From Lachnospiraceae bacterium (lineage in GTDB: Bacteria; Bacillota; Clostridia; Lachnospirales; Lachnospiraceae), in NCBI GenBank assembly GCA_017526745.1, contig JAFXQX010000013.1, forward strand, positions 1 to 60,938: a stretch of DNA of 60,938 nt. The letters are read 5' to 3'. The number at the start of each line of letters is the position of its first letter. The stretch's first letter is position 1. Positions 10,898 through 51,796 of this stretch are shown piece after piece. The position numbers were made by a program, and so were the translations under genes. The notes below the pieces were generated by a model. The model was not told the origin of the DNA. It worked only from the letters and a program-made list of their open reading frames with translations, and did no database searches.

Positions 10898-10925
10898 ATT
10901 ATACCAAAAAACACAGTGTTTTCAA
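10898..10925 (-). promoter_or_regulatory. Predicted extended -10 promoter for the chemoreceptor
   Basis: TTGAAA (10920-10925) and TATAAT (10898-10903) are 16 bases apart on the minus strand, with TGG before the -10 (extended -10). The -35 overlaps the stop codon of the upstream hybrid kinase. The spacer contains the dyad AAAACAC/GTGTTTT followed by Ts, which could also act as the kinase gene terminator. Confidence 0.6.
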
Positions 10926-30700: not shown

Positions 30701-33700
30701 AGCCTTGATCTCATCATAATCGTATGTGATATCGGCAAACGATGCCTTATTATCATTCTGGCCTGTTACTACCTTCGCCGTAAGATCTTTTTTGACATCA
30801 CCTGTAAGAGTGAAATTAAACTTAAGACCGGCTGCCGTTGATCCTTCAACTACCTTCTTAACTTCAAGAGGAAGCTTTCCGGGAACGATATACTTGTTGT
30901 CAAATTTAGCAACCTTTGCAACAGGTACATTCTCTATACCATCGGTCGTAGTGATATTATCGCTCGTGATCTTGAATTCATCAGCGCTTAATACAGATAC
31001 GCCGTCAAGATCGCTGCTGACAACATCTGCCTGCAACTTGCCGTTCTTAAGATTTGTAACCTTAACAACAACCTTGTACTGATTCGAATCATATTCAACG
31101 TTCTTGATAGTACCCGGTCTCTCGGAAACCGTATAATAGAACGTCTTGTCTGCAGCATAATTGCCTTCGGAGACCTTAAGATCCTCTATTGAATATCCGA
31201 TCTCGTTGAACTCGAATGCCGGGAGTACATACTTGTCTCCATCCAAAGCAGCCGTAACTGTCTTAGAATCGCTGTATCCGCCGGAGAGCACATTACCATC
31301 CGCATCTGTCTCAGCAACATCAAATGTAAATGTATCGGCCTTCTCAACCGGGCGGCCCGTAAGGGTCTTATCTCCGCCAAACTTGACCTTTATCGGCTTA
31401 ACACCATATTCATTTGTGATGATAACCGGTGTCGGAACATAGAGTTCTATAGGATTTCCGTTCGCATCCTTGGCATCTGCGCTTGCATCAACAGAGCACG
31501 GTTCCATCGGACCACCGTCAATCGAAGCATAGACAACAAGTTTGCCATTGGCATTCTCATTCTCTTCCACCTTAACCTTAACAGTATGCTCAGGATATTC
31601 GCACACAAATCCGTCCTTAACAGTATCTTCCTTGATCGTGTACACATATTCATTTTTGCTGGCTCTTGTAAATGTAACGATGTCAAATTCTACGTCCTCA
31701 TACTCACGAGGCTCGGCAATGTTACCGCCTTCATCTCTTTTAAGCGTGATAGATTGCGTGTCTGTGTATGTCTCTACATCCTTACCCTTCTCTCTTTGTC
31801 CGGTAAGAGTGAATGAAAAATCACCATCATTCTTGGTCCAGCCTTCGCCTACAAGATTCTTTGTAACCTTAAGCTTAAGAGCTGCCGTAGATTCATATTT
31901 GTTGACAAATACTGCCCGATGGTCAGCATTTTCAATGCCTATAGCCTCAAGATTAAGAGTCGCTACAATCTTCTGCCAGAGTTTTGCAAAGAAGCCGCGC
32001 TCAGCGGGCTGTGTATCCTTCGGATATGCCTTCCAACTCGTTTCTATAGTACCTTTTCCGTTATCCTTAAGAGTGATCTCTACAGTGTACTTCGTTGTAT
32101 CATAAATGTAACCATCCTTCACGTATACTGTGTAAAGAATACCATTTTCATCGGATACTATCTTTGTTGCATCCGTGGGGATAACCTCTTCAAGAGTATA
32201 ATACTTCGTATACTCATAAACACCGTTACTGTCAGGTTCCGTTGATTTGTGAGATCCGCTGACAGCAGTGTTCCCGTCAAGGTCATCCTTGGTGAAGTGG
32301 AAGTTGAACTTAGCCTTTGCTGTATTTCCAGCCTTGTCAGCTGTGACAGGCAATGTTATGGATTCACCAACTTCCGGAGTGAGCTTAAATTTGAATCTAC
32401 CGTCTTCTCCAACCTTGAACTCTCTTCCTTCGAGGATCTTAGTTGCAAATATTTCCTCATCGCCTTCAGCTTCGTAGTAGTTGTTGATATAAGGAATCTC
32501 ATTCTGGCCCAGAGGTATTGCATGGGCTTTCCCGGTATCCTTGTCAAGCTTTGTATAGGTTTTTTCCACACCAAGAACTCCGCTGCCGTTATCGGTTATT
32601 GTTACAGCGATGTCATAGAGTGCGTTTTCCGTATTGTATGAGATACGGTCATTGCTTCCCGTTTCAACCTCACCCATGGTGTAGTGCAAGGTTACATATG
32701 GTTCATAGGTTCCATTCTTGTTTTTAAGAACAGTATCACGATCAAAGGTTACATCATCAAAGATAACCTTATAAAGGTTATCGATGTCCTCATTCTTCTG
32801 TCCGTGACCGTTTGTCCTCTCCACGGTCTTTCCCGAAGGATCAGTCAGGAAGAATGTAAACTGTCCTCTTTGGATGTCTCCGTTAAATCTCTTCTCAATC
32901 TCAAAGAAATCGGAGCCTTCCGCATTATAATGGTTCTCAAACGCACAAACTGCGTTGGAAACTTTATTTGTTTCGCTTACTCCATTCTTATATGTGGTTG
33001 TAGAACACTCAATATGTCCAAATCCGTCATCCCGGCATGTAAGACGTACTATGTACCTGTCCGGAGAAACCTCAACTTCCTTACCGGATGCGGTAACACA
33101 GCTCATCTCCTTTACAATGTAATCAACAGGCCCAGTAGGCATATTGTCCTGATCAATGGTGATCTCACCAAACTTAAGGATGTTATCGCCACCGGGCGTA
33201 CTGAAGCTGTCAAGGAAATCACTTCCCTTTACAACTATTTTGCGAGTCGGTTTATCTTCATCATCACCGGGTGCAAACAGCCCAAATGTGAACACGTCAT
33301 CCTTATCAAACTTTCTGCCGACCATTGTCTTAACAAGAGGAACATCAAATGATCCGCTTGCCTCGTATCTGTTGTAGAACTTAACTGTGTTCTCATCTGC
33401 AGAATTTGAATCAGCATGTGTATCATCAAGCACAGTAGGTTCAATTGTTTCCTGAGGAGTGTCGATGTTCTTGCGCTCAACATGAACTGTTACAACATAC
33501 CCTTCCTCGGCATTGACGTCATACAGTATTCCGTCTTTGGCAACATAATATGTACGTCCGCCAACGCTCTTTGTCGGAACAGTCTTGTTCGCAACGGCAT
33601 CCGCAGCAAACTTGCTTGTATCACCCCAAGGAATAACCTCGGTAATACGATACTTAAAGTCTTTGGAAGGAAGAAGTTTACCTTCCGAATCCTTCAGCAT

Positions 33701-36700
33701 GTTTGTATTGTAGTTAAGCGTTCTGAATGATGCCAGAGTTCCGACATTTCCTACCTCGTTCTGAGGCACATTTACTGTATCAAGACCATCTTCGCTCACA
33801 AGATTGAACTTGAACTCATCGTTTCGTATAGGACGAGAAGCTATAGTATCAAAATTCTTGATCGCATATAAAGGTATGCTGGTCTTGTTTACATATCGGT
33901 TGATAAATTCAATGCCTTCGGGAGCATCGGAACCATTCTTCTTGATCGTTTTGCCGTTTTGAGCCAATACGAGTTTTCCGTTACCGCCGTCAACAATCTC
34001 AAATGTAACCGTATACGTGGTTCCATCAGGAATGTATTTCTTCTCCTGAGTCTGGCCTTCGCCCTCGGTGCTCTCGGATTCTTCTGTCTTAGCTTCTTCC
34101 ACTACGGTGAACGTGTATGTTCCGGCCTTCTTGAAGGTTATCTTGTCAAACTTGAAACTGCCGCTCGCATCATTTGTAACCGTTTTATTCGCGGGCATCT
34201 TGACAAAATCATCAGATGCTTCTGTGAACGACTGTTTTTGTGTATTGACAAAACTATCAAAGGCAAGCGTGAAACTGAACTCATCCTTATCAAGCTGCTT
34301 ACCGATAAGGGTCTTTGAACCATCAATGTCATACTCACACTTATCGGCATTATAAGTATTGGCAAGTACAGCCTTAGCCATTGCATTGCCATTTATTGGA
34401 TCAAGCTTATCCTTATTATAGCCGGCATATACCGTCTTCTTAAGGTCCTTTGTTCCGTTATCTTCAACGACAACCTTGATATAGTAGGTCTGATCTGAAT
34501 AAGTTATACCGTTTTCAGTCTGACCCTTCTTGGCCTCAGTGATCGTATATTCGTGGGTACCGACATCACCCGGCTTACTCTTATCATAAGTGATCTCCTC
34601 AAATGCCCTAGGATGGCCAACCTTAACATCGGGTATAGTCTGAAGTACCTTTTCGCCTTCCTTAAGGACAAATGCAAACTCCTTATCCTTAAGTTCAGGT
34701 GAAGTATTCTCCTCATCCTTTTCAGCCCAGAACTGAACCTTACCTGTTGCGCCGTAAGAATTTATAAACAATGCACGATCTGATGTATTATCAAAATCAT
34801 TCGTGACTGTAAGGCCTAAGTCTGCTTTCGCATGACTGTTTGTACCATTATTATCCGTAACAGTAACAGTGACAGTCTTCGGCCCTGTAAGGCAACTGAT
34901 ATTACTGTCCGTTGGCGTAGCTTCTTCAAGAGTATAGGTAAACGTCTTGTATCTCTCACCACCCAGATCAGCAAGTGTATACTTTAATTTGGGACTAATC
35001 GTAAAGTTACCGTTTGAGTCATTTTTAGCCGTTCCTACAACTTTTCCGCTCGCATCCTTAAGATTGAATGTGAATTCCTTATCTTTAGGTTTACGTGTCT
35101 TGTTATCGAACTCCTTGAAACCATATACCTGTGTTTCACCGTCAACATCATAGTAGTTGTTAAATACAAGAGGTCCTACCAGTTCACCGTCACAGGCACT
35201 GTTATTCCACGAATACTTGGGATCAAGGTATGCGGTATATGTATGTTTACGCGTTCTTGCATCATACCTGTCTTCCAGATTTACCCATATCTTCAGGAAA
35301 TGGCTGGTTGTTTTAACACCATTAATCTCCTCCTGCATACCTGCCTGATCATAGATGATCTTGGTATTTGCAGTGTCTATTGTTTCCGATATCTTCCATT
35401 TGAAGTTCAGATAAAGAACTCTGCTGTAAGATCCCCAACCAAGGTCTTTATAGCCGGAGAAATGCTTGATTGAATTACCATAACCGTTATTAGGAAGACC
35501 TTTGTTAGGCTCGTAATAATTAGTGTATACGAAATTATACAGTTCCTTGGGATTGTCTATCTTAACAGTACCAAGTTCCAGTTCATGATTATTGGTATTA
35601 TACTCGATCCAACCTTGGCCGGGGTTAAGCTGCGGCATCAATTTCACATCTACAGGCGTTGGGTCATTATTATACGGTTCTGCCTTGAAATAGAATTTCG
35701 CAGGCCAGTACTTAAGATCGGTAAGTTCTTTACCTTTGCTGTCCTTAAGGTATTTCTTAACTTTGATCTTATATGTTCCGGGCTCTTCTTCCTCTTCCCC
35801 TATTGGAGTATTGTTGAATACAACCGGTGTGTCTATGGCATTGGAAACCTCACCGTCAAGAAAAGATCCCGAAGCACTGCCATCATCATTTATCTTGATG
35901 ATCTTTTTCTCGCTCTCGTTTACGCTGACATTACCTGTGCTATCTATTGTGACCGGAACCTTAACGGCATATACAGTTGAATCATATGTGAATCCTTCCG
36001 CACCACCTGTCTCCTTTATAATGTAGTAATAATCACCGGCATTTGATCCAACAGGATATTCAATATCAAACGATACACTGCCGCTATTATCATTATACTG
36101 AGTATCAAGACGAGCACTATCCTCACTTCCGTCCATCAGTATCTTGGCGTTACTTCCATTGCCTTCTTTCTTTGCCTTGAACAGCTTGAATTCAAACCTC
36201 TCGCCATTACTTGCATTTGCAGGCTGTCCGTCTACAGTCTTTCTGGCATAAAGAGTGATCCCGGTTCCGTCCGGAGATGGCAGATCATGATTATGATAGT
36301 GCCATTCGTTACCTGCATCGTTGCTGTTGCAGACCAAGATGCCGCCGCAGGCACCACCATCGCACGTAACCTTTGCGTTCGGTGCGATAATGACTCCCAT
36401 GGACTCAGTCAATTTCACGCTTGTCGCATTCTGCATGTTAAAGATGACCGCCGTGGTCGCCCAGTCGGCTTCTCTGTTAGTACTACCAATATATTCAGAC
36501 GGCTGCTTTCCATTCAGATGCCAGCGCTGCAACGTAAGATCTGTTGCCGTGCAGTTTATGATCAGCCTCTGCCCGGGATTCAGATAAATATCCAAACCAT
36601 CAGAGTCTTTGTCCATGAATGTACTGTCGGACTTAATGACATAAACTCCATCCGGCTGCTTCCTGAGATCAACGGTCGGGAATCTCTGGGAACCGGTCTG

Positions 36701-38680
36701 GGTCTTTTTGATGGTTGTTCCCATATCAAAATAATTGCTGTAGTAGGTGCCAATACCGGAGATCACAGAATCGACAGCGATGTTATGATTCTTATGGATA
36801 TTTTTTTTATCAACATTGGAAAATGTCACCGTTCCATTATTGTATTTGGCAGTTGCAGCATCTCCAAGATATACATTGGCGGGAGCCTGGTGAAACTCTA
36901 TATTACTCGGACCTTCAATATCGCCAAAATAATTATTTCCGCCGGCATTACTGTAGTTGTTCGATGCGCCAACATCCTTGACACTGCTGCTATAAGAGCC
37001 AACCATGACATTGGTTTCCGTATCACCGCGATGTGTATATGTATTGGCAATAATACCGTAGTCATAGCCCTTCCCTAACGAAGTTGCAAAAGAAAAATCT
37101 GCTGCAGTATCTGTTGTCGTGATCGTTCCGGAATCAGTGATTTTTGAGATCGCCCAGACTGACAGACTGTCCGTATCAAATTCAACCACGCCTTCTTCCA
37201 CCAATGCGGAAGCATCAACTTCCTCAGTTGTGATGTCGGAACCTTCTTCCTTAATATGAGTTACAACAAGATCCTCGGGCGCTTCGGCTCCAAGTTCCTC
37301 AGAAAGCTGTTCCTTCTTGAATTCGATTGATATGCTTACCGAACCTTCTTCGGGCTCGATCTCTTCACTCTTGGACTCGTCTGTATAGAATCCGATGTTA
37401 TAAAGCAGCGTATTATCTGCGGTTGCGAGAACATCGCCGTTTTCAACATCTTTATCGGCGTTTAAAGCCTCAAGATACTTTGCTGCCTCTTCTTCCGTAA
37501 GAGGTGTGACATCAAAATATGCATCATCGGGAACGGCATCTGCCTTCTCGAGTGTTGCCGTAACCTTTATCTTCGCATCTTCGAATTTGTAATCACGCTT
37601 AACGTTCTCATTATCAACAGTGATGACTGCAACGCCGTCTTCCACGCTGTCAACGTCTGCAAGCGTTTTGATCTTGACCTCGTCATTATCGGAGATCACA
37701 TACGCAACAAAGCTCTCACCGTCAAGATCTTCAACGGTAAGAGAGCCGGTATTCTTATCAAGGCCTGTGATACCTCTTGTGGCATCTTCTCCGTCAACCG
37801 TAGCTTCGGCATCAGTTTCAACATAAAGCTTGAATGCTGCCTTGTCGGAAAGGTCTTCTGTAGCAAACTTAATAGTGATGCTGTCGTAGCCTTCACCCTT
37901 TATTGCAGCAGCTTCTGTATTGTCTGAAGCTATGATGGTTTCTGTATCAAGTGATTTTTCCGCTCTTACGCTCTCAAGAGCAAAAGTGGGATATCCGTCT
38001 TCGTTATATTTGCAGGAAAGGATTACATCATCTGAAGAAGTTATTCTGATCGAGAACTCACCGCCGTCAAGATACTCGAAGTCGTATCTGCCGTCATTGG
38101 TCTTGTCAAGGTCCTCGTTAATGACAGGATTGTATGAAGCATCGGCAGGACCGGTGAACTCAATGCGGAACCTGTCCTTCTTGGCAAGCTTCTCGGTATC
38201 GACATAGATCGAGATCTCGTCGTATCCGGAACCTCTTATCTCGTCATCGGACATTTCAAGGTTACCTTCCTTCAGCGCATCGGCCTCTTCGAAGGTCTCC
38301 TCTTCGACCGCAGATTCTTCGGCTGCAGCATCTTCCACAGCACCTTCCGTAACCGAATAGCCCTCTTCGGATCCTTCGCTCCTGACGAGGGAATCCTCCT
38401 CGTATCCGTCTGAGGAACTGTATTCAGATGTATCGGCATCTGCGCTCTCATCAGGCACGACCTCAATGTCGAGATCATCACCCGATGACTCTTCATATTC
38501 GGCAGGCTCTGATGCCTCCTCCTGTGATGACTCCTCAACAGCATCGGTATTGACAACGATGCCGTCATCTGTCGTGATCTCGGCTGCTAGTGTCGATACT
38601 GACGTAAAGCCGGTCTCAAGTACTGTTGCGATGAGGGTTATCATCGCGATAGTAGTCCTAAGCCAATTTCTCTTCTTCAT
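24794..38680 (-). CDS. Giant cell-wall surface protein with about 20 isopeptide-type domains
   Basis: The 4628-residue protein has a signal peptide (MKKRNWLRTTIAMITLIATV... LAAE), an acidic Ser/Glu region (to about 150) and a region to about 520. A choice-of-anchor A-type domain (about 528-800, KGYDYGIIANTYTHRGDTE to NEWHYHNHD) follows. About 20 FctA/Spy0128-like pilin domains (about 808-4135) each start with a Lys before L-x-G-R and end in F-x-N-x-Y, the Lys/Asn pair that forms intramolecular isopeptide bonds. Then come a Cna-B domain (about 4137) and three SpaA-like domains (from about 4240). Three GVLG(A/V/E)R phrases lead to the sorting signal GPVTGD, a membrane segment and KKKKTAK. Ribosome binding site AAAGGAG. 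Likely a very long fibrous adhesin; a sortase should anchor it. Confidence 0.92.
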   Translation of the reverse strand: MKKRNWLRTTIAMITLIATVLETGFTSVSTLAAEITTDDGIVVNTDAVEESSQEEASEPAEYEESSGDDLDIEVVPDESADADTSEYSSSDGYEEDSLVRSEGSEEGYSVTEGAVEDAAAEESAVEEETFEEADALKEGNLEMSDDEIRGSGYDEISIYVDTEKLAKKDRFRIEFTGPADASYNPVINEDLDKTNDGRYDFEYLDGGEFSIRITSSDDVILSCKYNEDGYPTFALESVRAEKSLDTETIIASDNTEAAAIKGEGYDSITIKFATEDLSDKAAFKLYVETDAEATVDGEDATRGITGLDKNTGSLTVEDLDGESFVAYVISDNDEVKIKTLADVDSVEDGVAVITVDNENVKRDYKFEDAKIKVTATLEKADAVPDDAYFDVTPLTEEEAAKYLEALNADKDVENGDVLATADNTLLYNIGFYTDESKSEEIEPEEGSVSISIEFKKEQLSEELGAEAPEDLVVTHIKEEGSDITTEEVDASALVEEGVVEFDTDSLSVWAISKITDSGTITTTDTAADFSFATSLGKGYDYGIIANTYTHRGDTETNVMVGSYSSSVKDVGASNNYSNAGGNNYFGDIEGPSNIEFHQAPANVYLGDAATAKYNNGTVTFSNVDKKNIHKNHNIAVDSVISGIGTYYSNYFDMGTTIKKTQTGSQRFPTVDLRKQPDGVYVIKSDSTFMDKDSDGLDIYLNPGQRLIINCTATDLTLQRWHLNGKQPSEYIGSTNREADWATTAVIFNMQNATSVKLTESMGVIIAPNAKVTCDGGACGGILVCNSNDAGNEWHYHNHDLPSPDGTGITLYARKTVDGQPANASNGERFEFKLFKAKKEGNGSNAKILMDGSEDSARLDTQYNDNSGSVSFDIEYPVGSNAGDYYYIIKETGGAEGFTYDSTVYAVKVPVTIDSTGNVSVNESEKKIIKINDDGSASGSFLDGEVSNAIDTPVVFNNTPIGEEEEEPGTYKIKVKKYLKDSKGKELTDLKYWPAKFYFKAEPYNNDPTPVDVKLMPQLNPGQGWIEYNTNNHELELGTVKIDNPKELYNFVYTNYYEPNKGLPNNGYGNSIKHFSGYKDLGWGSYSRVLYLNFKWKISETIDTANTKIIYDQAGMQEEINGVKTTSHFLKIWVNLEDRYDARTRKHTYTAYLDPKYSWNNSACDGELVGPLVFNNYYDVDGETQVYGFKEFDNKTRKPKDKEFTFNLKDASGKVVGTAKNDSNGNFTISPKLKYTLADLGGERYKTFTYTLEEATPTDSNISCLTGPKTVTVTVTDNNGTNSHAKADLGLTVTNDFDNTSDRALFINSYGATGKVQFWAEKDEENTSPELKDKEFAFVLKEGEKVLQTIPDVKVGHPRAFEEITYDKSKPGDVGTHEYTITEAKKGQTENGITYSDQTYYIKVVVEDNGTKDLKKTVYAGYNKDKLDPINGNAMAKAVLANTYNADKCEYDIDGSKTLIGKQLDKDEFSFTLAFDSFVNTQKQSFTEASDDFVKMPANKTVTNDASGSFKFDKITFKKAGTYTFTVVEEAKTEESESTEGEGQTQEKKYIPDGTTYTVTFEIVDGGNGKLVLAQNGKTIKKNGSDAPEGIEFINRYVNKTSIPLYAIKNFDTIASRPIRNDEFKFNLVSEDGLDTVNVPQNEVGNVGTLASFRTLNYNTNMLKDSEGKLLPSKDFKYRITEVIPWGDTSKFAADAVANKTVPTKSVGGRTYYVAKDGILYDVNAEEGYVVTVHVERKNIDTPQETIEPTVLDDTHADSNSADENTVKFYNRYEASGSFDVPLVKTMVGRKFDKDDVFTFGLFAPGDDEDKPTRKIVVKGSDFLDSFSTPGGDNILKFGEITIDQDNMPTGPVDYIVKEMSCVTASGKEVEVSPDRYIVRLTCRDDGFGHIECSTTTYKNGVSETNKVSNAVCAFENHYNAEGSDFFEIEKRFNGDIQRGQFTFFLTDPSGKTVERTNGHGQKNEDIDNLYKVIFDDVTFDRDTVLKNKNGTYEPYVTLHYTMGEVETGSNDRISYNTENALYDIAVTITDNGSGVLGVEKTYTKLDKDTGKAHAIPLGQNEIPYINNYYEAEGDEEIFATKILEGREFKVGEDGRFKFKLTPEVGESITLPVTADKAGNTAKAKFNFHFTKDDLDGNTAVSGSHKSTEPDSNGVYEYTKYYTLEEVIPTDATKIVSDENGILYTVYVKDGYIYDTTKYTVEITLKDNGKGTIETSWKAYPKDTQPAERGFFAKLWQKIVATLNLEAIGIENADHRAVFVNKYESTAALKLKVTKNLVGEGWTKNDGDFSFTLTGQREKGKDVETYTDTQSITLKRDEGGNIAEPREYEDVEFDIVTFTRASKNEYVYTIKEDTVKDGFVCEYPEHTVKVKVEENENANGKLVVYASIDGGPMEPCSVDASADAKDANGNPIELYVPTPVIITNEYGVKPIKVKFGGDKTLTGRPVEKADTFTFDVAETDADGNVLSGGYSDSKTVTAALDGDKYVLPAFEFNEIGYSIEDLKVSEGNYAADKTFYYTVSERPGTIKNVEYDSNQYKVVVKVTNLKNGKLQADVVSSDLDGVSVLSADEFKITSDNITTTDGIENVPVAKVAKFDNKYIVPGKLPLEVKKVVEGSTAAGLKFNFTLTGDVKKDLTAKVVTGQNDNKASFADITYDYDEIKAAGGTKTYHYTVTEDLPKDEQGNEIDKKDGITYTRDKYEITVVVTAPTDLTKPLDIKETVSKYLYTNNGYSVDPDYNEKEGIYLFSFTNEYDAEGGTPIEGFKVVPGSDDRRVLEGFKFKITRTNADGEIIPFEDGEVSQTEVTSGADGIFHFDMHYTLASYNEEPERYYKITEDCDEETRKALNAKYQEIYGPGAELDFDKDKDGKIVKVVLSDSGNGTINADISDNELPVTIENPLYLPNSIRFVAEKTLTGRPLKGDWFKFTLKKTGDNGYEVNSIDNKEEVTVVVREDGQTADITFPAETFTLNDAGKTYHYEIIEEDYSKIKGVKRIVTSYKAEVKITKDPDNNRIQILTDDVRLICDGLDESYMGNVLPQVNESKPGAYTIGGIKFKNEYSSEVEIELKGEKHISGFDENPDEDFTFALYNFSDQKNPVKINDDGKVGSEGDEQKFTVNPSKDKDLTFAFKKIKYDQTDVGNTFHYVIKEVVPEKKTENVSYSTIWYDITIAVDYAGANKDGVLTATVTQKKMDGNSELSTDKYTSTYNEDKNLGTLKVAGFDFTNRYLYNSIAFAAIKDLKGRAHGKKETYSFKLTDEFNKKEYTALSDGSGQAELATIPYGEGDLDKVHEYTITETAAKDGSELDPAEAQSYRVEVTPYEDTTDGKLKLKKQFYAVYKDGSEKEYNAGADDALVFKFEFHNIYNRDGNVEVPVKKILVNKALDPAKDKFKFTLKDASGAKIRVKEGDKFVEKDQLEITNESVAAAGLARKELEIDGVTRTRRFDESDEFYFDSIWYNSIDDLGNQDEVTKYYIVTEEVGEDSKSYIEYSKTEYVVEVTIKATDDPKEKLAKITNFEASDEIKGDEAKTNSFIEWIKSLGKNQEEISKNCEFINFYSAKCEIDPPILRKAIMGREIVPGEFQFEITGPALESNPKYAGGYKNIVKNGYKTVTDAKGNTTYELIPGHPDEIFVGDIIYNINKDFDDLQYGEELTSDEKSHVGADADKYKKFVYTAKEIAGDSTDGVEYPTDLELTLTVFVMDDGEGNLKVKGLGNTEFWDKETNPKALEWKQTKGSNKVEVEVNVEENDENGNTVVTKKKVDIVNIFDQKGHIDLEGKKLYNGPDFDAGKFSFKITEVNDPVERKPVTDKINGKDQIREATVTNSGDGTIGSDPDLVKFDHNTIDFLNYNAGVEYDKDTNTYTAKPLEEVVGPHFYLIEETAQTDENIDYDYNKYIVTIDVSETYRYENGKKVYDTRNNGVPVLKAEVSNVQVLVPGSERLDTPDFTPSRTGDVETGFTYHTTFKFENKREAYGNVSISGIKFLADLAGNALASPNSMKDQFGFAIHQYDDAARTRGKTLIDSTRSEADGSFNLNVIKEGKNYAYDLNDLKDEKGVAQTSKTFYYRVTETKPSSGVWSENNTVFESEGVIYDLVEYDVDVKVTFDGTKALKIEKTIRNAATGEAVASKYTSRGKDLGFSNTVKEYTVIEGNKYWIDNFTDPNDRPTVTVNLYQRTASGVERRINSYDIVAPDTTYRFATDASGNELPTYDSAGRPYTYIVEETPIEGYLSEKINYDFYNTAGDILIRKIDADTRAPLAGATLAIMDGSTEIERWTSGASAHVVESVLTAGRTYTLHEIEAPEGYGLADDMTFTVPTDGDTITVTMSDPPIYGSVRLTKRDAATRETLAGAEFALYNEAGTRIYATGAPGSYRATSTTSNGVFVTDGSGSLTIADLPYGTYYFVETKAPDGYALSTERLGFTIVRGGELVEVTYLDSKAVGSVRLRKVGARGTIGLAGAVFELYARTPRTVGQAASSTLFSDAYYRYGTYRTNAAGEIYVGDLPWDDYYFVEVDAPAGYEVATDVNGDDLVYVFTVGAGTADLTIDLGGIVNNPTEETTPPPRGGVLGARVKKGGVVNGVLGVRAKPTSGVLGERIGPVTGDASNIILWLLLLTACVATIVVTIITGKKKKTAK

Positions 38681-38962: not shown

Positions 38963-39946
38963 GTGTCCAATCAAAATGACCAATACAATGGGAACGGATT
39001 TACACTGATCGAGCTGGTTGTTGTAATAGCGATCATGGCTCTTCTCGTGGGGATCCTGTCGCCCATGTTTATAAAATATGTGGAAAGATCGCGTCAGGCT
39101 GCCGATATTTCCAATGCCGAGTCTGCATATGCGGCTGCGATGACCTACTACTCGGCTGCGGAGGGCCACGTACCGTCAAGGCTCTATTTTGATGGAAGCG
39201 ACGTTGTGGAAAGCGAGACCGGAATACAAGGGTACGGAAAATCAAAACATGATTTTACGGAGTTCGTGCCCGATGATTTTCCCATTTCAAATGTGGGCGG
39301 CAAGCCGGTCGAGCTTATGCCCAATTATATAATCGTCACGATGGGGCCCTCGGGCGTGGAGGGGCTCGGCTGGGGTGTTGCCATGACGGCGGTCCATGCG
39401 GACGGAACCCCGAAGTATACGAACCGGATCTTTACTCCTGCCGAATACAACTCGTCTTCGAGCGAAGACCTCGTAAAACGCGATGTTGAGCTGTTCAATT
39501 CACTCGAAGCCGCAGCATCCGAGATGACATACGGGGAACTGATGGAAATGGCAAAGGACCTCCACCTTGTGGAAAGCACGTACGGAGGCCACATAATCAT
39601 AAAGCTCGCAACGAGCAACATATACAAATCATCTCATGAAGCCGGCAACAAGGGAACGGACAAAAACGAGATATTTGCAAAAGAACTGTTCCGCAGGGCC
39701 GGATATGACACTTCTCTTCCTCCCGAGCAGACATACATAGTAACGTCGCGCGTGGGTGAACCTACGGATGTTTGGATAGATCTCGGGTACTCGGCCGATG
39801 AACTGCTGCATGATTCCGAGCTTATGGTCTCAAAGGCCGCAAAGGTTGTCGTATACGGTGAAGGTTCGGGTGAAACGGTGGATGAAGGCGTGCTCGATCA
39901 CGATGCCCGCGTCTCCGACAAGCAGAAAAGAAAGCCCGAAACGTAA
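38963..39946 (+). CDS. Type IV pilin-like (pseudopilin) protein
   Basis: The 327-residue protein begins with GTG at 38963 behind GGGGAGG. The N-terminus has a class III prepilin signal: a short leader, then NG|FTLIELVVVIAIMALLVGILSPMF, with the Glu at mature position 5 and the hydrophobic helix that assembles the pilus. The large C-terminal domain (about 270 residues, without Cys pairs) is not recognised. No prepilin peptidase, PilB/PilC or other pilin gene is in the window, so it would have to use machinery encoded elsewhere. It is divergent from the giant adhesin and converges with the GGDEF/EAL gene, with 16 bases between stops. Confidence 0.88.
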   Translation: MSNQNDQYNGNGFTLIELVVVIAIMALLVGILSPMFIKYVERSRQAADISNAESAYAAAMTYYSAAEGHVPSRLYFDGSDVVESETGIQGYGKSKHDFTEFVPDDFPISNVGGKPVELMPNYIIVTMGPSGVEGLGWGVAMTAVHADGTPKYTNRIFTPAEYNSSSSEDLVKRDVELFNSLEAAASEMTYGELMEMAKDLHLVESTYGGHIIIKLATSNIYKSSHEAGNKGTDKNEIFAKELFRRAGYDTSLPPEQTYIVTSRVGEPTDVWIDLGYSADELLHDSELMVSKAAKVVVYGEGSGETVDEGVLDHDARVSDKQKRKPET

Positions 39947-41661: not shown

Positions 41662-42483
41662 CTAGTAAAGGTAAACGTCCTTGAATTTGCCGTGGACGAA
41701 GAATCTCTGTTTGTTTGATCCGCTTCCGGAGCAGGTGACAAGAGTTACGATATTGATGTCCGGATCAGGCTTGGCGGCGCACTCTTTTACGGATTTCTTG
41801 GCCGCTTCGCGGATGTATGCCCTGTACTCCTTGAATGTCTGGCAGGTGTAGTACATCTTGGAATCCGTAGGATCGAGATAGAATGAGAATATCTCATAGC
41901 GGTATATGCCCTCAGGCCTGAACACGTAGATGTACGGCTCCTTGTCATATATCGCAGGATTATTGATGTAGTTCTTCAGATGCCCGAACATCGTGCCGTT
42001 CTTCATGTTGTGGCCGTAGAAGAATGTATTCCAGCTTGAAAGCATCGGGTCGACCTCATAATCCATGAAGACGCAGCCGGCACTGTTCTTCTGCATCTCG
42101 AAAGTGTGGTGAAGATAGAATTCGTTGTCGGTTCCCTGTACAACGGGATGGTTGATCTCGGCGCCCGGGGCGTAAAGCCAGCATACGTAGCTGCCATTGA
42201 TCTTTTTTAAGGCCTCGTGATCGACCGCAATATCTGGAAAGTCTGCCCTGTTGTAGTTTCGGGTCAGGGTCTTCTCTTCCTCTTCTTCGGTCTCTTCGGC
42301 CTCTTCTTCGGCGCTGTTTTGCGCGGGTTCCGGATCGGGGGCACCGGCAACCGCATACTGTTCAAGGCCGGCGTACTCAGATTCCGCGGCCTTATATTCC
42401 ATTGAAGTCTTGACGAGCATGATGCCCGAGACGACAACAGCCAGTGATGCGATTACGATGATTATAATTCGTGCTTTTGACAT
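41662..42483 (-). CDS. Class B sortase
   Basis: The 273-residue membrane-anchored transpeptidase has an N-terminal membrane segment (about 5-25), an acidic linker and a sortase B core. The His lies in FFYGHNMKNG, the catalytic Cys in LVTCSGSG and the Arg in KQRFFVHG. Normal length for class B. It lies about 3 kb upstream of the giant adhesin gene with the EAL and pilin-like genes between, and could anchor that protein. A GGGACGG palindrome (42508-42551) begins 25 bases before its ATG. Confidence 0.93.
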   Translation of the reverse strand: MSKARIIIIVIASLAVVVSGIMLVKTSMEYKAAESEYAGLEQYAVAGAPDPEPAQNSAEEEAEETEEEEEKTLTRNYNRADFPDIAVDHEALKKINGSYVCWLYAPGAEINHPVVQGTDNEFYLHHTFEMQKNSAGCVFMDYEVDPMLSSWNTFFYGHNMKNGTMFGHLKNYINNPAIYDKEPYIYVFRPEGIYRYEIFSFYLDPTDSKMYYTCQTFKEYRAYIREAAKKSVKECAAKPDPDINIVTLVTCSGSGSNKQRFFVHGKFKDVYLY

Positions 42484-45046: not shown

Positions 45047-46012
45047 CTATCCTATGATCTCGCAATAAACAAGCGTCTGGTTGATGAGCTGATATGCAAC
45101 CTCTCCGAAGGTAACAGGTCCGGTAAATGGCGGTATCTTCTGTCCGTTAAGATTTCCGTACATATAGTTAAGTATACAGTTACATGAAAATACAGGATCT
45201 TTTGCCTCCATTGCGGCTATTCTTTCTTTGAACTGTCCGGAGTAATCGTCCACCTTTGTGGCAAAGCGGTAGTCAATATTTCTGAATACCGGTGCGTAAA
45301 ATCCTACCGTACCGTTTTCAACGGACTTGATCGAGGTGTTGATATATGAACCGTTATAGTCAGCCACAAGCGGCATCTTGGTGTCAACACCCTTCTTCTC
45401 GATATACTCGGCAAAATTCACCTTCTGACCGTTTACAACGCAATCCGTAACACTCAGATCATTATCATTGAATCTGATGATGGGGTCGGTCTTGTCATCG
45501 GTGAAGATGTTCACCATATTGATCATGGCACTCTTGCCCCCGGGAATCTTGATATACATAACCACTGCCTTGTCCGTATACGAATTGCATGTAGTGCCGT
45601 CATACACCTTTATGCTGCCCATGGCCTCAAGATCTGCTCCTGCGATCCATCCGATGGTGGGATGCATCAGAAGCTCTTCAACCTCGGGAGCCTCCTTCGA
45701 ATACTTGGCTGCCACCTCGGATCCGTAGGGCATTATCAGCATTGTAAGGCCGTTGTCATAGCACTCCTCCACGATCTGGAAAATGTTATATTTTCCGTAT
45801 GTCGCGATCCTGATATCCTCCGCATAATCTATCTCATTTACGAACAATCTGTCTTTGGTGAATATCCCGCCTTCCTCACTCATGAAATAAGGTGTTGTAC
45901 CGCCGATCCATTTCCCCTTCGGGAGTTTTTCAAGAAGCGAATCATCCGCCGCGATATGCAGGATCTTTCCTTCTTCAATAAGCCTGATTGTATCTTCCAA
46001 CGTAATAAGCAT
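45047..46012 (-). CDS. FIST-like / DUF6976-type protein of unknown function
   Basis: The 321-residue soluble protein starts MLITLEDTIRLIEEGKIL and contains WIGGTTPYFM, MPLVADYNGSYINTS and FYAPVFRNIDYRFA. I associate these with DUF6976, and the C-terminal PVTFGEVAYQLINQTLV resembles the end of FIST_C, a domain proposed to bind small ligands such as amino acids in signalling proteins. This assignment is from memory and not searched. It lies four bases before the AGCS transporter gene in the operon, which fits a ligand-sensing or accessory role. Cysteines SCNCILNY are visible. Confidence 0.6.
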   Translation of the reverse strand: MLITLEDTIRLIEEGKILHIAADDSLLEKLPKGKWIGGTTPYFMSEEGGIFTKDRLFVNEIDYAEDIRIATYGKYNIFQIVEECYDNGLTMLIMPYGSEVAAKYSKEAPEVEELLMHPTIGWIAGADLEAMGSIKVYDGTTCNSYTDKAVVMYIKIPGGKSAMINMVNIFTDDKTDPIIRFNDNDLSVTDCVVNGQKVNFAEYIEKKGVDTKMPLVADYNGSYINTSIKSVENGTVGFYAPVFRNIDYRFATKVDDYSGQFKERIAAMEAKDPVFSCNCILNYMYGNLNGQKIPPFTGPVTFGEVAYQLINQTLVYCEIIG

Positions 46013-46049: not shown

Positions 46050-46268
46050 TCAGAGTGCCACTATATTTGCAAGATCAACCTTCGCAACTATAGGATACTT
46101 TGACATGAATTCATCCATCTCTTTTATGCACGCTTCCATGCTTTGAGGATCAGACTGCAGTCTCTTCTGCATTTTGGATATGAGCATGTTAAGTGCAAGA
46201 TTTGATGATGTGTACTTAACCTCTCCGCGCAGGAGTTTTTCAATCTTTTCCTGTGCCAACGCTTCCAT
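46050..46268 (-). CDS. Small helical protein of unknown function
   Basis: The 72-residue product (MEALAQEKIEKLLRGEV...) is predicted all-helical, with no membrane segment or signal. It lies 24 bases after the DegV-containing kinase and 37 bases before the FIST-like gene, with a good ribosome binding site, so it belongs to the operon. It may bind a kinase or the FIST-like protein. No family is recognised. Confidence 0.7.
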   Translation of the reverse strand: MEALAQEKIEKLLRGEVKYTSSNLALNMLISKMQKRLQSDPQSMEACIKEMDEFMSKYPIVAKVDLANIVAL

Positions 46269-46292: not shown

Positions 46293-49200
46293 TTATTCCA
46301 GTGCTTCCAGTATTTTGTCATAGTCCAGCATCTTTGCCGCCTCACGGATCAGCTCGAACTTTTCTTTATCCGGATCGGGAATTGAATACTCTCCGATCTC
46401 CTTCATGATCATTTCAACCTTCTCACAATCCATATCGTCCGCCGCATCATGAAGCTCCTCATATATACTTGCCATAAGATCGGCATCTGCAACAGGTTTT
46501 TCAGATTTCTCCTCCTTCCCGCCGGCATCTTTATTGCCAAATGCAGGTGAAAGTGCCTCCTGATAACTCAGGTAATGATCCATTACAGCACCGTGATTTT
46601 CTCTGATGTACTGGATATTATCACCCTTGCCCGCCATCTCAAGCGCTTCAGCCATATCACCCAGTTCCAGTGCTCCCACAAGCCTTGCCGAACTCTTAAG
46701 GGCATGTATCTTTATCGTGTAGTTCTCCCAATCGTTTGATACATAATAGTTCTCAAGATCCTCATGCTTGTCCGGTATTGAATTGTAAAATATTTCCAGC
46801 ACCGATCTGAAGGCTTCCTCGGAACCGCTGTTCTTTATGGCAACAGCGGCATCGATACAGTCAAGCTTCTGATACCATTTATCTGTACCTTCCGGCTCAA
46901 CGGTATCTGCTTCTTCTGCGGCAGCCTCCGGGATCTCATCCGGGATCATATCCCATAATTCATCCTGTGATTCATCCTGTAATTCATCCTGAATCTCCTC
47001 CGGCTCCTCTGAGTCTTCAATCTCTTCCGTCCTGCGGTCATCATCGATATACGATGCGATATTATACATCTTGTTTGACTTGAGGAAATACAGTATTCCA
47101 AATGTTCCGGGGCCGCAGTTGGAGGATATGGCGGCAGAAGCCTGCTGGAATATGACATGCTCAAAATAAGCTGTCTTTCTGATCTCCTCCGCGATCCACT
47201 CAAGTGTTTCACCGGGAAGATAAGCGTATGTAACAAAAGCAATATCCGAATCCGGTATTAAATCCGGCGGAAGTGCTCTGCGGATATATCTTCTGTAAGC
47301 CCGCTTTGTCCGGCCCAACCATATCCCGCCGATAGCTTTCTTATCGTTTCTGATGCTCAGCATAGGGTGAAGGTTCAGAGCCTTTGCGATCTTATGAAGT
47401 CTCTGACTGATCAGTCCCCTATTCGCCATATATTCCGTAGTGTCGATAATAAAGCTGCAGCGCAGGCGGTATTTTATCTCCTCGAGTTCGGAAATGATAT
47501 CCTGAACCGGAATGCCCTGTTGAGCAAGTTTATAAGCAATAAGCACAAGTAAACCGGTGGAGCTGGACAGACATTCCGAATTGATGACCGTAACATTATC
47601 AAATGATTTTGCCGCCTCTGTTGCAAGATGATAGTCTTTACTCATACTCGTTGTCAGAGATATATGTATCACGTGATGCGCTCTCTTAAGCACATCCGCA
47701 AAGAATTCAGTATAAGCTGCCTCATCCGGAGGAGATGAGATTGCCTCCCTGCCCTCACTGATATGCCTGATAAGCTCGTTGGCATCAATGTGAGTACCGT
47801 CCTTGAACACACCCTCATCTGTTTTGATAACGAACGGCAATATCGGAATATGAAGCTTCCTTACCACTGCATCGGGAAGATCGCACATGCTTGTGGATGT
47901 AATGATGACAGGAGCCTTATCGGCGTATCTCTCGGAGGTATGTATTTCCTCATCATCACCTATCATTACGGATCTTAGGATGATCTTCTCGCCGGAAATA
48001 TGGCGGATAAGCATCTGCTCCATGGCTTCTCCGGAAACAGGCTTGATCAGATATCCGTCGAATCCCGCCCTTGTGTAGAGATCCCTGTTCTCACTGCCGG
48101 CGTTGGCGGTAAGAACGATAACAGGGGTTGTCCTGTTCAGACCTCCCGCCTGATTTCTGAGCTGGTCAAGACACTCTATTCCGTCCATCTTCGGCATGAG
48201 ATGATCCATAAATATGGCGTCAAAATGAGTCTTCAGACTCATCTCCAGTGCCTCCTGTCCGGAAAGAGCCGTGTAGATACTCATATCGGTATCCGCAAGC
48301 AGCCTCTTTTCAACCTCCAGATTCATCTCATTATCATCAACGATCAAAATGCTGACCTCGGGTGCCAGAAAACTGCTCTCGTAGTTGCTTCTCTTAACCG
48401 TCTGCTGATTGTGGATATTCATTTCACCCACCTTGCTGTGATCGGTCACGGTCTGCTTTATGACAAACGCAAATGTTGATCCTTCGCCGTATACACTGTT
48501 AACGGTGATGGTCCCGTCCATCAGTTCAATAAGCTGTTTTACAATGCTCAGTCCCAGTCCGGTTCCTTCTATGTGACGGTTTTTACCTTCGTCAACACGC
48601 TTGAACGCATCAAACAGGAACGGTATATCCTCTTTTTTGATCCCCATTCCGGTATCCGCGATGGAAACCGTCAGTTCAGCCGTCTTCTCATCTATATCCT
48701 TACTCTCAACACGAAGCTCTATATGTCCCTTCTGGGTATACTTCACTGCATTGTTCAGAAGATTTATGATAAGCTGCTTTATGCGTACCTCGTCACCATA
48801 GAGGACGGTCGGCACTTCCGGATCAACACTCACTTCAAATCCCAGACCCTTTTCATGTGCCTTGTGCCAGATCATGTTCACTATCTCCGACAGCATATCA
48901 CCCACATTATAATCGACCGGTACTATATCCATGCTTCCGGCTTCTATCTTAGAAAAATCCAGGATGTCATTAATAAGAGCCAGCAGCAGTTTGCCTGCTC
49001 CCTGTATGCCGTTTGCATCCCTTACAACATCATCCGAAGCGCTTTCGTCACGGAGGATCAGCTCGTTAAGTCCGAGTATGGAATTGATGGGCGTACGTAT
49101 CTCATGACTCATACTTGAGAAAAATCTGTTCTGGGCCCGGGTGAGCTCCTCCGCTCTCTCGGCTTCTCTGATAGCTCTGTCGTTTTCTTTCTTAAACAGA

Positions 49201-49751
49201 ACAGACTGTGCCATGGACATGGCAAAGCACACCAATCCCACAAGCAGAACAGAAATAAATGAATCCACATAGGTTTCCCGGAAGGAATGGACCCAGAGTG
49301 GCGAACCGATGTAATATGATACCAGATAACAGACAAGAGTCAGAGCCGACAGGATTGACAGCATCACCGTTCTCCATCTTCCCGTCAGAAGCATTCCGAT
49401 ATACATAAAGGTGAAGATGATCCACAGGAATCCCCCTCCGTTCAGACCGCCTCCGAAGAAAAACAGTGACGGAACAACACCGAACACCTGGCATAAAACA
49501 ACCAGTTTGATAGCCGGCTTGAGCCTGTTTTTGTACAAACCCGTCAGCGTGCATGCAGGTACCATGATCACCACGGCAAGTACCGTTAATATCTCTCCCG
49601 GACTCTCGCCGATGTATATGTCACCGATAAGCGCAATGGTAACTGCTATCTCGGTGATTATCGTAACTATCAGGAACATCCGTTCCGTAAAATCCCTGTC
49701 ATGATCCCTGATGGCCTCAATATATCTTTTGAACAGTCCGTTTTTCTTCAT
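46293..49751 (-). CDS. Hybrid histidine kinase with receiver, DegV-like lipid-binding domain and HPt
   Basis: The 1152-residue protein has about six N-terminal membrane segments (to about 185). HisKA (His in SMSHEIRTPINSI, about 215), HATPase (GTGLGLSIVKQ, about 380-400) and a receiver (Asp in AIFMDHLMPKMDG, about 515) follow. From about 614 to 890 there is a DegV-like domain: IITSTSMCDLPDAVV replaces the usual IITDS-x-CDLP, then PILPFVIKTDEGVFKDG, HVIHISLTTSMSKDYHLA and HPMLSIRNDKKAIGG match the fatty-acid-binding fold. An acidic linker leads to an HPt domain with the His in IKIHALKSSARLVG (about 1015). Its ATG overlaps the stop of the upstream kinase by four bases. The domain order is unusual. 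Confidence 0.9.
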   Translation of the reverse strand: MKKNGLFKRYIEAIRDHDRDFTERMFLIVTIITEIAVTIALIGDIYIGESPGEILTVLAVVIMVPACTLTGLYKNRLKPAIKLVVLCQVFGVVPSLFFFGGGLNGGGFLWIIFTFMYIGMLLTGRWRTVMLSILSALTLVCYLVSYYIGSPLWVHSFRETYVDSFISVLLVGLVCFAMSMAQSVLFKKENDRAIREAERAEELTRAQNRFFSSMSHEIRTPINSILGLNELILRDESASDDVVRDANGIQGAGKLLLALINDILDFSKIEAGSMDIVPVDYNVGDMLSEIVNMIWHKAHEKGLGFEVSVDPEVPTVLYGDEVRIKQLIINLLNNAVKYTQKGHIELRVESKDIDEKTAELTVSIADTGMGIKKEDIPFLFDAFKRVDEGKNRHIEGTGLGLSIVKQLIELMDGTITVNSVYGEGSTFAFVIKQTVTDHSKVGEMNIHNQQTVKRSNYESSFLAPEVSILIVDDNEMNLEVEKRLLADTDMSIYTALSGQEALEMSLKTHFDAIFMDHLMPKMDGIECLDQLRNQAGGLNRTTPVIVLTANAGSENRDLYTRAGFDGYLIKPVSGEAMEQMLIRHISGEKIILRSVMIGDDEEIHTSERYADKAPVIITSTSMCDLPDAVVRKLHIPILPFVIKTDEGVFKDGTHIDANELIRHISEGREAISSPPDEAAYTEFFADVLKRAHHVIHISLTTSMSKDYHLATEAAKSFDNVTVINSECLSSSTGLLVLIAYKLAQQGIPVQDIISELEEIKYRLRCSFIIDTTEYMANRGLISQRLHKIAKALNLHPMLSIRNDKKAIGGIWLGRTKRAYRRYIRRALPPDLIPDSDIAFVTYAYLPGETLEWIAEEIRKTAYFEHVIFQQASAAISSNCGPGTFGILYFLKSNKMYNIASYIDDDRRTEEIEDSEEPEEIQDELQDESQDELWDMIPDEIPEAAAEEADTVEPEGTDKWYQKLDCIDAAVAIKNSGSEEAFRSVLEIFYNSIPDKHEDLENYYVSNDWENYTIKIHALKSSARLVGALELGDMAEALEMAGKGDNIQYIRENHGAVMDHYLSYQEALSPAFGNKDAGGKEEKSEKPVADADLMASIYEELHDAADDMDCEKVEMIMKEIGEYSIPDPDKEKFELIREAAKMLDYDKILEALE

Positions 49752-51796
49752 GCTCTGCCGCCTCCCTTCACATTTGCTTCGGGAAGGACTCTCAGCATTA
49801 CCCTTTCAAAATCGGTTATGTTTATCGGTTTTGCAATAAACCCGTCAAAACCTTCGTTGATGAACATTTCCCTTGCACCTGACACTGCATTTGCGGTAAG
49901 TGCGACAACAACAGCCTTTTTATCCATATCGGCAGCCACGGCTTTGATCTTCTGCATGGCCTCCACACCGTCCATTTCCGGCATCATATGATCCATAAAC
50001 ACAATGTCGTAATCGTTGTCACGATATTTTCGAATGGACTCCTTACCGCTTCCCGCGGTATCTATTACCATTTCATAATTCTTGAAGAGCGATGTCGCCA
50101 CAACGAGATTCATCGGCTCATCATCCACAATAAGTGCCTTCACGCCCCTGAATACAGGTCTTTCCCGACTCTCATCATCTTCAATGTCCGTGACATTACG
50201 ACCTTCATTTAGGATCTTTATTATGGGGTACGCATAAAGCGGCTTGGGCATCAGTATCACACGGCTGCCCTCCGGCAATTCGAATCCCGCCTCAGCCGAT
50301 ACAACAACTATGATATCTTCCTTTGCCAGTTCCTCGAAATATCCCTTGTTTTCCTCATACTCCTCCTGACCCATGAACACATGGGTGGCGCTTATTTTTT
50401 CCTTTAAGCGTTCAACCTCATACACCGTATCGGCAGGATACAGGGGAACCTTTATTCCTGTTGCCAGATTGGCGGCCATATTGCGGTAGAACTCGCGAAG
50501 CCTCGGGGTTTTGTACTTATCGGGTCTGACATGGAACAGAACAGCTCCCTCAAATGATTCCGCAAGGGAAAGACATGGTTTTTTATCAATAATCTTTTGG
50601 GGGATCGTGACTCTTATCGTCGTACCGTTTCCTCTCTCGCTTTCGATCTTAACGAAGCCCCCCATTCTGTGAGCAAATCCGTGGACAATATAAAGACCCA
50701 GCCCTATACCGCCTGAACTGCGGTTTCTCTTTTTATTGGCCTGATACATTCCTTCGCTTATAGACCGGATGTCGTTCCTGCTCATGCCCATACCGGTATC
50801 CGTCATCTCGATGCACAGATTCACACCGTAATCGGTGGATTCCGCAAACATCTTCACGTATACACCGCCTTTTCTCGTGAACTTGATAGCATTTTCGAGA
50901 AGATGTCTGAATATCTTGTGAAGCTTTTTAATATCGCCTCTCAGCATTGTCGGAGTCTGCGGGCTCAGATCGACAACCATTTCCAGATTCTTTGTATTAT
51001 CATACTGCCGGAAGCTTGTGACTACATCATTTATAAGGGATATGCACATGTAATTATCTTCTTCCAGGAATACTTTCTGTCTCTTACACTCTGTATAATC
51101 CTGGATATCCTCAACCTGGCACGCCAGCCTTATTCCCGCTTTTTTTATCGAGTTCGCTTCGCTGCCGACACCCTCATTTATCAGAAGATCCGACATACCG
51201 TTAACGACATTGATCGGCGTCCTGAGCTCGTGGGAAATATTTGAAAGAAAATCCTCCATATCTGCTTCGTTGCGATCGATCCGGACATTCATATCCTGTA
51301 TGCTGTCATTGTACTCCGCCCGGTCGCTTATCGCCTTGACACAGCTGAAGTAGATCAGAAAGATGACAGAAAAGTGCAGGATGACTCTGGATATGTTCAG
51401 TCCGTCAAATACGATACTGCCGCTGCCGTGAGCCATCATGATCTGCATGCACATGATGATCACATATTCCGCAACAAACAGGTGCATCATATAGACCTGA
51501 TCAAAGAAGGAGAATCCTATCATAACAAGCGTGACGATAGCTACTACGTCAAAGATACTTGTTTCATGTACTCCGTGAAAAAAAACAGTCAGCATGGCAT
51601 AGATCAGATATCCGACCCTGCGGATCGGATAATCCGGGATGGACAGAACATTCATTACCCACAGTAAGATCGTTCCGATGATGATAAGAGGCGGTACCCA
51701 GAATTCCCACCCCAGCATGATACTCTCTATCGTCAGACCGGCACAGGCCAACGTTATCAGGAGCAGAATAAAATTTTCGGTTCTTTTCTGATTCAT
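49748..51796 (-). CDS. Hybrid histidine kinase with a degenerate and an intact receiver
   Basis: The 682-residue protein has five or six N-terminal membrane segments (to about 160), HisKA (His in NISHELRTPINVV, about 190), HATPase (SGGIGLGLYIVHG), a degenerate receiver-like region (about 440-540) and a C-terminal receiver (Asp in IVFMDHMMPEMDG, about 600). It is the first gene of the seven-gene operon. Ribosome binding site GAAAGGAAAC. It begins only 23 bases after the stop of a broken SGNH hydrolase. Confidence 0.92.
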   Translation of the reverse strand: MNQKRTENFILLLITLACAGLTIESIMLGWEFWVPPLIIIGTILLWVMNVLSIPDYPIRRVGYLIYAMLTVFFHGVHETSIFDVVAIVTLVMIGFSFFDQVYMMHLFVAEYVIIMCMQIMMAHGSGSIVFDGLNISRVILHFSVIFLIYFSCVKAISDRAEYNDSIQDMNVRIDRNEADMEDFLSNISHELRTPINVVNGMSDLLINEGVGSEANSIKKAGIRLACQVEDIQDYTECKRQKVFLEEDNYMCISLINDVVTSFRQYDNTKNLEMVVDLSPQTPTMLRGDIKKLHKIFRHLLENAIKFTRKGGVYVKMFAESTDYGVNLCIEMTDTGMGMSRNDIRSISEGMYQANKKRNRSSGGIGLGLYIVHGFAHRMGGFVKIESERGNGTTIRVTIPQKIIDKKPCLSLAESFEGAVLFHVRPDKYKTPRLREFYRNMAANLATGIKVPLYPADTVYEVERLKEKISATHVFMGQEEYEENKGYFEELAKEDIIVVVSAEAGFELPEGSRVILMPKPLYAYPIIKILNEGRNVTDIEDDESRERPVFRGVKALIVDDEPMNLVVATSLFKNYEMVIDTAGSGKESIRKYRDNDYDIVFMDHMMPEMDGVEAMQKIKAVAADMDKKAVVVALTANAVSGAREMFINEGFDGFIAKPINITDFERVMLRVLPEANVKGGGRA

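Follow-up and report, generated by a model that had tools for sequence, protein, structure and literature searches.

A DegV domain without FakA-docking residues in paired hybrid histidine kinases of Lachnospiraceae suggests a lipid-sensing switch

The subject of the present analysis is a hybrid histidine kinase gene in a 60,938-nucleotide stretch of DNA from a Lachnospiraceae bacterium (contig JAFXQX010000013.1 of assembly GCA_017526745.1; this whole stretch is hereafter called the window). The product contains a DegV domain, related to the free-standing fatty acid-binding FakB proteins, and the gene adjoins that of a second hybrid kinase; this kinase pair, together with a DegV domain devoid of the residues for docking to FakA, suggests a lipid-sensing switch. 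Relatives of the DegV kinase fall into two types, namely a long type, with an HPt domain on the DegV kinase itself, and a short type, in which the DegV domain is terminal (histidine kinase-receiver-DegV). The pair and the domains of the DegV kinase, which is of the long type, are laid out as follows (lengths in amino acids, aa; domain limits as residue numbers).

46293..49751, minus strand: DegV hybrid histidine kinase (P0001), an open reading frame of 1152 aa with an ATG start
49182..49691, minus strand: putative membrane region (residues ~21-190), MASE11-like below the cut-off, helical in the structural model
48936..49136, minus strand: HisKA domain (206-272), Pfam match; His216 identical in 65/65 aligned relatives
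48453..48797, minus strand: HATPase_c domain (319-433), Pfam match; N, G1 and G2 box residues kept in 43/43
48009..48350, minus strand: receiver domain (468-581), Pfam match; Asp516 identical in 65/65 aligned relatives
47085..47915, minus strand: DegV domain (613-889), from Pfam PF02645, NCBIfam TIGR00762, fold comparison and alignments
46884..47039, minus strand: linker between DegV and HPt (905-956), a low-confidence region with a predicted local distance difference test score (pLDDT) below 50
46635..46802, minus strand: HPt domain (984-1039), Pfam match; His1016 identical in 43/43 aligned long-type relatives
49748..51796, minus strand: partner hybrid kinase (HisKA-HATPase-receiver) of 682 aa, overlapping the start of the DegV kinase gene by 4 bp, with no HPt match

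The DegV domain is virtually certain to have the DegV/FakB fold. The PF02645 match at residues 617-889 scores 127.3 bits against a cut-off of 27 (E-value 9.6e-37), TIGR00762 scores 137.9 bits against a cut-off of 99.7, and the three-dimensional fold is that of a DegV protein. An earlier sequence-only reading of this DNA had proposed the DegV identity, which stands after the possibility of a different fold was checked, and the domain order membrane-HisKA-HATPase-receiver-DegV-HPt, which agrees with the Pfam positions and the helices of the model; the three motifs it quoted are all present in the protein. Its claim of an extra residue in the DegV start motif has to be dropped: no gap occurs at this position when the protein is aligned, by profile or pairwise, with known DegV proteins, so that the canonical Asp of the DST motif is substituted, in this case by Thr, and no residue is added.

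The components of a hybrid-kinase phosphorelay, that is, the HisKA His, the HATPase boxes, the receiver Asp and the HPt His, are all present, the HPt match scoring 29.5 bits against a Pfam cut-off of 24.6; the kinase His and the receiver Asp and Lys are identical in 65/65 aligned DegV kinases. The N-terminal region gives a weak MASE11-like match (19.2 bits, under the cut-off of 27.3), and in the full-length model it forms five helices (21-47, 51-73, 77-99, 107-121 and 125-147) followed by a sixth long helix (157-234) that continues into HisKA. The top NCBIfam matches of the whole protein are TorS (336 bits against 676.5) and BarA (333 against 890), both far under the cut-off. The architecture had been called unusual, and the open-access papers searched agree with this to the extent that none describes it: among the matches listed in open-access PMC, titles and abstract starts make no mention of a DegV-kinase fusion. 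The DegV domain of these kinases may well already be labelled by genome annotation pipelines.

The fusion recurs in other genomes, in which the sequence-only reading had proposed to search for the same architecture. The genome of the window itself (2.6 Mb, labelled G000, with the window's contig as C21) contains seven DegV matches: three belong to hybrid kinases, and the other four, with frames of 291-313 aa, are free DegVs. One FakA-like protein (Dak2 domain) is also encoded. The scan of named genomes yielded 99 stretches encoding a relative, of which 80 were kept, and 80/80 are kinase-receiver-DegV fusions as judged from the length of the open reading frame and the alignment to the window protein, some being cut by contig ends. 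With the two further copies in the same genome, these loci imply that the fusion is more than a chance event. The record labels are mostly Lachnospiraceae or Butyrivibrio, many from ruminants, and a few are Oscillospiraceae, Ruminococcus, Eubacterium, Coprococcus, Lachnospira or Pseudobutyrivibrio.

Wider counts refer to DegV matches in long open frames, the kinase domains of which were not checked individually. Such a match, in a frame of at least 450 aa, is found in 33/37 genomes of the genus; with frames of at least 600 aa, the count for the order is at least 26/392 genomes, 24 of which belong to the window's family and 2 to a different one; a maximum of six candidates was scored per genome, making this a minimum. 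When an E-value of 1e-45 or better is additionally applied, the class has 6/291 genomes and the phylum sample 3/299; among the matches listed for these 299 genomes, no such long DegV frame comes from outside the class. None of 146 matching plasmid records spans 80% of the query, and the matches listed cover residues 120-648 only. We also observe DegV matches at G460:C44:64828-65652, G055:C32:123117-123941 and G054:C22:13279-14127, the frames of which are 580, 603 and 430 aa long, respectively; these may represent further, different fusions.

The partner kinase is a constant companion of the DegV kinase. Its gene is located directly upstream in 3/3 loci of the window's genome and in 73/73 fused genes for which the upstream sequence extends over 700 nt or more, a count that excludes the 8/81 fused genes with less than 700 nt and includes partners that are partial at contig edges or runs of N (L095, L104 and L140) or were recovered with tblastn (L113, L146 and L147). 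The L143 partner is divergent, with 25% identity and matches to HATPase and HPt but none to HisKA or receiver; this locus (L143:3116-6177) also differs in its upstream regulator, which is a receiver-HPt protein. The phosphorelay residues of the partners are invariant in the aligned rows: the kinase His and the receiver Asp are identical in 49/49 rows of one alignment (48 distinct genes, one gene being included twice as L098 and L119 from the same contig, with L119's own partner added later) and in 21/21 of the other, in which the HPt His of the partner is identical in 21/21 rows as well.

Each scanned pair has one HPt, which can be located on either protein. At an E-value of 0.01 or better, HPt is found in 58/58 long-type DegV kinases (56 from the loci and two from the window's genome) and in 0/49 distinct genes for their partners; conversely, it is found in 0/24 short-type DegV kinases (two cut genes being outside the scan) and in 23/23 of their partners. 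Several of these matches (L089, L102, L113, L114, L116, L117, L119 and the L147 partner) are below the Pfam cut-off. A single HPt per pair, on either partner, is the prediction of a single shared relay, and the paired kinases are likely to form one two-kinase unit.

The fused DegV domains differ from FakB at the positions that matter for the carrier function. In FakB1, the carboxylate of the fatty acid is bound by a network of Thr62, Ser95, Ser171 and His270 (PMC8892158, PMC9136124; the literature is cited here and below from excerpts), and mutation of this network yields unstable proteins (PMC8892158). The R173A mutant of FakB is stable and exchanges fatty acids normally, yet shows no activity with FakA; binding of FakA and of the membrane depends critically on Arg205 (PMC9136124, PMC8892158). 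The corresponding residues in the window protein are Ser672 (Thr62), Ser704 (Ser95), Leu780 (Arg173), Leu812 (Arg205) and Asn878 (His270), so that Arg205, Arg173 and His270 are all missing. To place these substitutions in context, 47 free and 117 fused non-identical domains, near relatives included, were aligned jointly using whole open reading frames; the free DegVs are mostly best hits of the relatives, a sample that may favor canonical carriers.

The position of Arg205 is occupied by Arg in 46/47 free domains (one has Lys) and in 1/117 fused domains, 113/117 of which have a hydrophobic residue (F, L, M, I, V or W). Arg173 is found in 47/47 free and 31/117 fused domains. His270 is present in 46/47 free domains (with one gap; an earlier alignment of shortened domains had a gap there in 8/36 free rows) and in 1/117 fused domains, Asn being found in 113/117. 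The nearest free relatives keep all three residues in 11/11 cases. The equivalence of Leu812 with Arg205 agrees with a profile-profile alignment, whereas one pairwise alignment to 4x9x places Arg205 two residues later, at Arg814, a column with Arg in 7/66 rows. Other features of the domain are conserved: the Thr62 position is Ser or Thr in 112/117 fused domains, the Ser95 position is Ser in 76/77 long-type domains, and the NCGPGTFG loop has its glycines unchanged in 66/66. In the short type, the Ser95 position has Ser in 14/40 domains, Asn in 12 and His in 6, a one-residue shift making this part of the alignment uncertain, and the head-group residues are generally less well kept than in the long type, which retains a constant but altered polar site. 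The loss of Arg205, Arg173 and His270 makes a role as a FakA carrier unlikely and, given the mutational data on Arg173 and the role of Arg205, the pattern is more in keeping with a sensor than with a carrier; that the fused DegV is not a FakA substrate carrier can be stated with high confidence.

The phylogeny of the DegV domain points to a single fusion. In a quick tree of 152 domains, a branch with support 100 separates 106 fused from 46 free domains, and in a more careful tree, built from 66 of the 152 rows (drawn at random apart from certain named ones, omitting the fused L052 and L171 and the free long-branch L075, L036 and L032), 42 fused and 24 free domains are separated with support 100/100. 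All 21 HPt-bearing rows of the careful tree form a single clade (100/98), whereas the 21 DegV-terminal rows form a clade in 0/200 bootstrap trees when the free DegVs are the outgroup. Because of these two results, the most economical history has a free DegV joining the end of a kinase-receiver protein once, with HPt added later in one branch, and insertion of DegV into an existing histidine kinase-receiver-HPt protein, as the sequence-only reading had it, is unlikely. Several losses of HPt, the base of the fused clade lacking resolution in the tree, would retain a small probability. The quick tree requires two changes for HPt, the second being L052, the frame of which ends shortly after DegV. 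A tree of 54 HPt rows, addressing whether the long-type HPt came from the partner or was newly acquired, has long branches and few supported forks and contains at least one mispicked row (L205, from the motif search). The placement of DegV between receiver and HPt, where according to the sequence-only reading it could gate phosphotransfer in response to a bound lipid, cannot be the general mode of working, given that the short type carries its HPt on the partner kinase.

The interpretation that receives about half of our confidence is that the DegV domain is a former FakB-type carrier that now serves as the cytosolic sensor of a two-kinase phosphorelay. A ligand-sensing role as such is moderately likely, the identity of the ligand as an acyl compound has an even chance, and a lipid-responsive DegV domain is plausible. 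Under this scheme, the two kinases would form one complex at the membrane, in which phosphate would pass from the His of a kinase to the Asp of a receiver, then to the His of the shared HPt and finally to the Asp of a neighboring response regulator. The DegV pocket would take up an acyl ligand, drawn from either the membrane or the cytosol, and a lid movement of the FakB type might then alter kinase activity or the access of HPt. Movement of the lid is known in FakB (PMC8892158) and offers a possible way to couple ligand binding to shape. Several observations weigh against a lipid sensor of this kind. Arg173 persists in the 31 fused domains mentioned above, and conservation of the Ser95 position is lacking in the short type. 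The change of His270 to Asn alters the carboxylate network and, considering the instability of FakB network mutants, the ligand may be something other than a free fatty acid, or the domain may bind no ligand at all. Some long-type HPt matches are under the Pfam cut-off (L116, L117 and L119 among them), and the relationships between domains are not usable from the full-length model (predicted template modelling score, pTM, 0.51). Finally, there is no match to a lipid-metabolism family among the five scanned neighbors, and the genome has no match to oleate hydratase (PF06100), which was accordingly rejected as a link to lipid metabolism.

The same facts have to be set against other explanations. 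The DegV domain could be a ligand-free structural or docking module, the surface of which serves dimerization or holds the two kinases or the HPt; the hydrophobic residue at the Arg205 position in 113/117 domains could then be a new contact surface, and the reading is in line with the loss of His270, the variability of Ser95 in the short type and the 73/73 association with a partner gene. We regard this as rather unlikely, because the hydroxyl at the Thr62 position (112/117), the Asn that is nearly as constant at the His270 position (113/117) as is His in free DegVs, and the invariant glycines of the NCGPGTFG loop form a constant polar site that is hard to explain without a ligand, even though fold stability could keep it. 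Still less probable, although compatible with the altered carboxylate network, is a ligand other than a fatty acid, bound in the manner of the co-activator DhaQ. Continued function as a FakB that supplies FakA with fatty acids, with the kinase serving as a membrane tether, appears highly improbable: a FakA-like protein is indeed encoded in the genome, but Arg205, on which docking depends, is Arg in a single fused domain and the catalytic Arg173 is kept in a minority, whereas the four free DegVs of this genome keep both.

Two further genes lie downstream of the pair, the second of which is a candidate for the output of the relay.

46050..46268, minus strand: conserved open reading frame of 72 aa directly after the DegV kinase gene, matched in 18/80 loci with 57-100% identity
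42706..43464, minus strand: candidate output regulator of 252 aa with a C-terminal receiver, from Pfam and homologues near long-type genes

The 252-aa receiver protein is probably the output regulator in the window; it is located 2.8 kb downstream, beyond a sodium:alanine symporter gene and a DUF6976 gene (45047-46012, minus strand, 406 bits). A DUF6976 gene is also seen in several closely related loci. Similar proteins of 248-285 aa are encoded somewhere in the fetched locus of 42/56 long-type genes, 34 of them downstream (19 within 38 nt) and 8 upstream, and a homologue directly follows the C39 copy in the window's genome. The short-type loci have a different arrangement. Among the 22 with room upstream, a receiver-HD-GYP regulator directly precedes the pair in 14 (11 by Pfam and 3 by motif only), including the C7 copy of the same genome; three others have receiver-GGDEF, receiver-GGDEF-receiver or receiver-HPt proteins, and in five none was found. 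Cyclic-di-GMP would thus be the output in the short-type branch. With 22 matches to HD_5 (HD-GYP type) and 15 to HPt, the genome has a large repertoire for cyclic-di-GMP and phosphorelay signalling; none of these HD_5 matches is on the window's contig.

Several other genes of the window lie outside the pair. Another hybrid kinase is encoded at 10922-13549 (minus strand), with a dCache match under the cut-off. A giant surface-type protein of 4628 aa (24794-38680, minus strand) has FctA isopeptide matches in 14 stretches and SpaA matches in three, and a sortase gene (41662-42483) is located at a distance of about 3 kb, likewise on the minus strand. Between the giant protein gene and a GGDEF-EAL gene, there is a lone 327-aa open reading frame (38963-39946, plus strand), the N-terminal methylation motif of which resembles that of type IV pilins.

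Taken together, a broader scenario can be put forward tentatively, as possible rather than probable: Lachnospiraceae and their neighbors would have a fatty acid-to-phosphorelay circuit of their own, independent of Rpf of Xanthomonas, in which a hybrid kinase acquired a FakB-type carrier in a single event; after the loss of its contacts with FakA, the carrier would now signal gut or rumen acyl lipids to a paired kinase sharing a single HPt, located on either partner, with cyclic-di-GMP turnover as the output in one branch. If DegV binds lipid, it would be a direct cytosolic fatty acid sensor for Gram-positive gut bacteria, derived from a metabolic carrier, and the mutants for testing it follow directly from FakB biochemistry. 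Butyrivibrio fibrisolvens, a member of this group, is stalled by polyunsaturated fatty acids until these have been hydrogenated by the bacterium (PMC2836310, from an excerpt), a setting in which a lipid sensor would be useful. The presence of one HPt per pair, placed on one protein or the other, provides a natural experiment for asking if a pair of hybrid kinases can function as one relay, and a carrier clade that loses its enzyme contacts on joining a kinase would be a clear example of a sensor derived from an enzyme subunit.

In comparison with known systems, the FakB/DegV fatty acid-binding proteins (PF02645; 1pzx, FakB2 4x9x and FakB1 5uto) are free-standing, whereas here DegV is part of a kinase. 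Most fused domains, unlike FakB, have lost Arg173 and Arg205, and His270 is replaced by Asn. The HisKA-HATPase-receiver core is shared with hybrid kinases of the BarA/TorS type, from which the pair differs in having one HPt per two kinases. To our knowledge, kinases of the BarA/TorS type lack a DegV domain. DhaQ, which is related to DhaK and belongs to the wider fold class, has a co-activator role but is a separate protein acting on a transcription factor. The DhaQ/DhaK ligand is a different one, and we know of no link of these proteins to histidine kinases. In the Rpf system, RpfG is a receiver-HD-GYP protein, and RpfC has a receiver and an HPt. In Xanthomonas, a fatty acid activates the hybrid kinase RpfC by binding to a 22-residue N-terminal region (PMC5391125, from an excerpt). 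The DegV kinase pair resembles RpfC/RpfG in the membrane-associated hybrid kinase with receiver and HPt, in the fatty acid signal proposed here, and in the receiver-HD-GYP regulator that adjoins most of the short-type loci examined; it differs in the DegV sensor domain, the presence of two kinases per system, the putative nature of the ligand and the window contig without an HD_5 match. Thus, the pair would work most like RpfC/RpfG, yet it is not a member of that system, given the different sensor domain, the two kinases and a window locus without an HD-GYP regulator.

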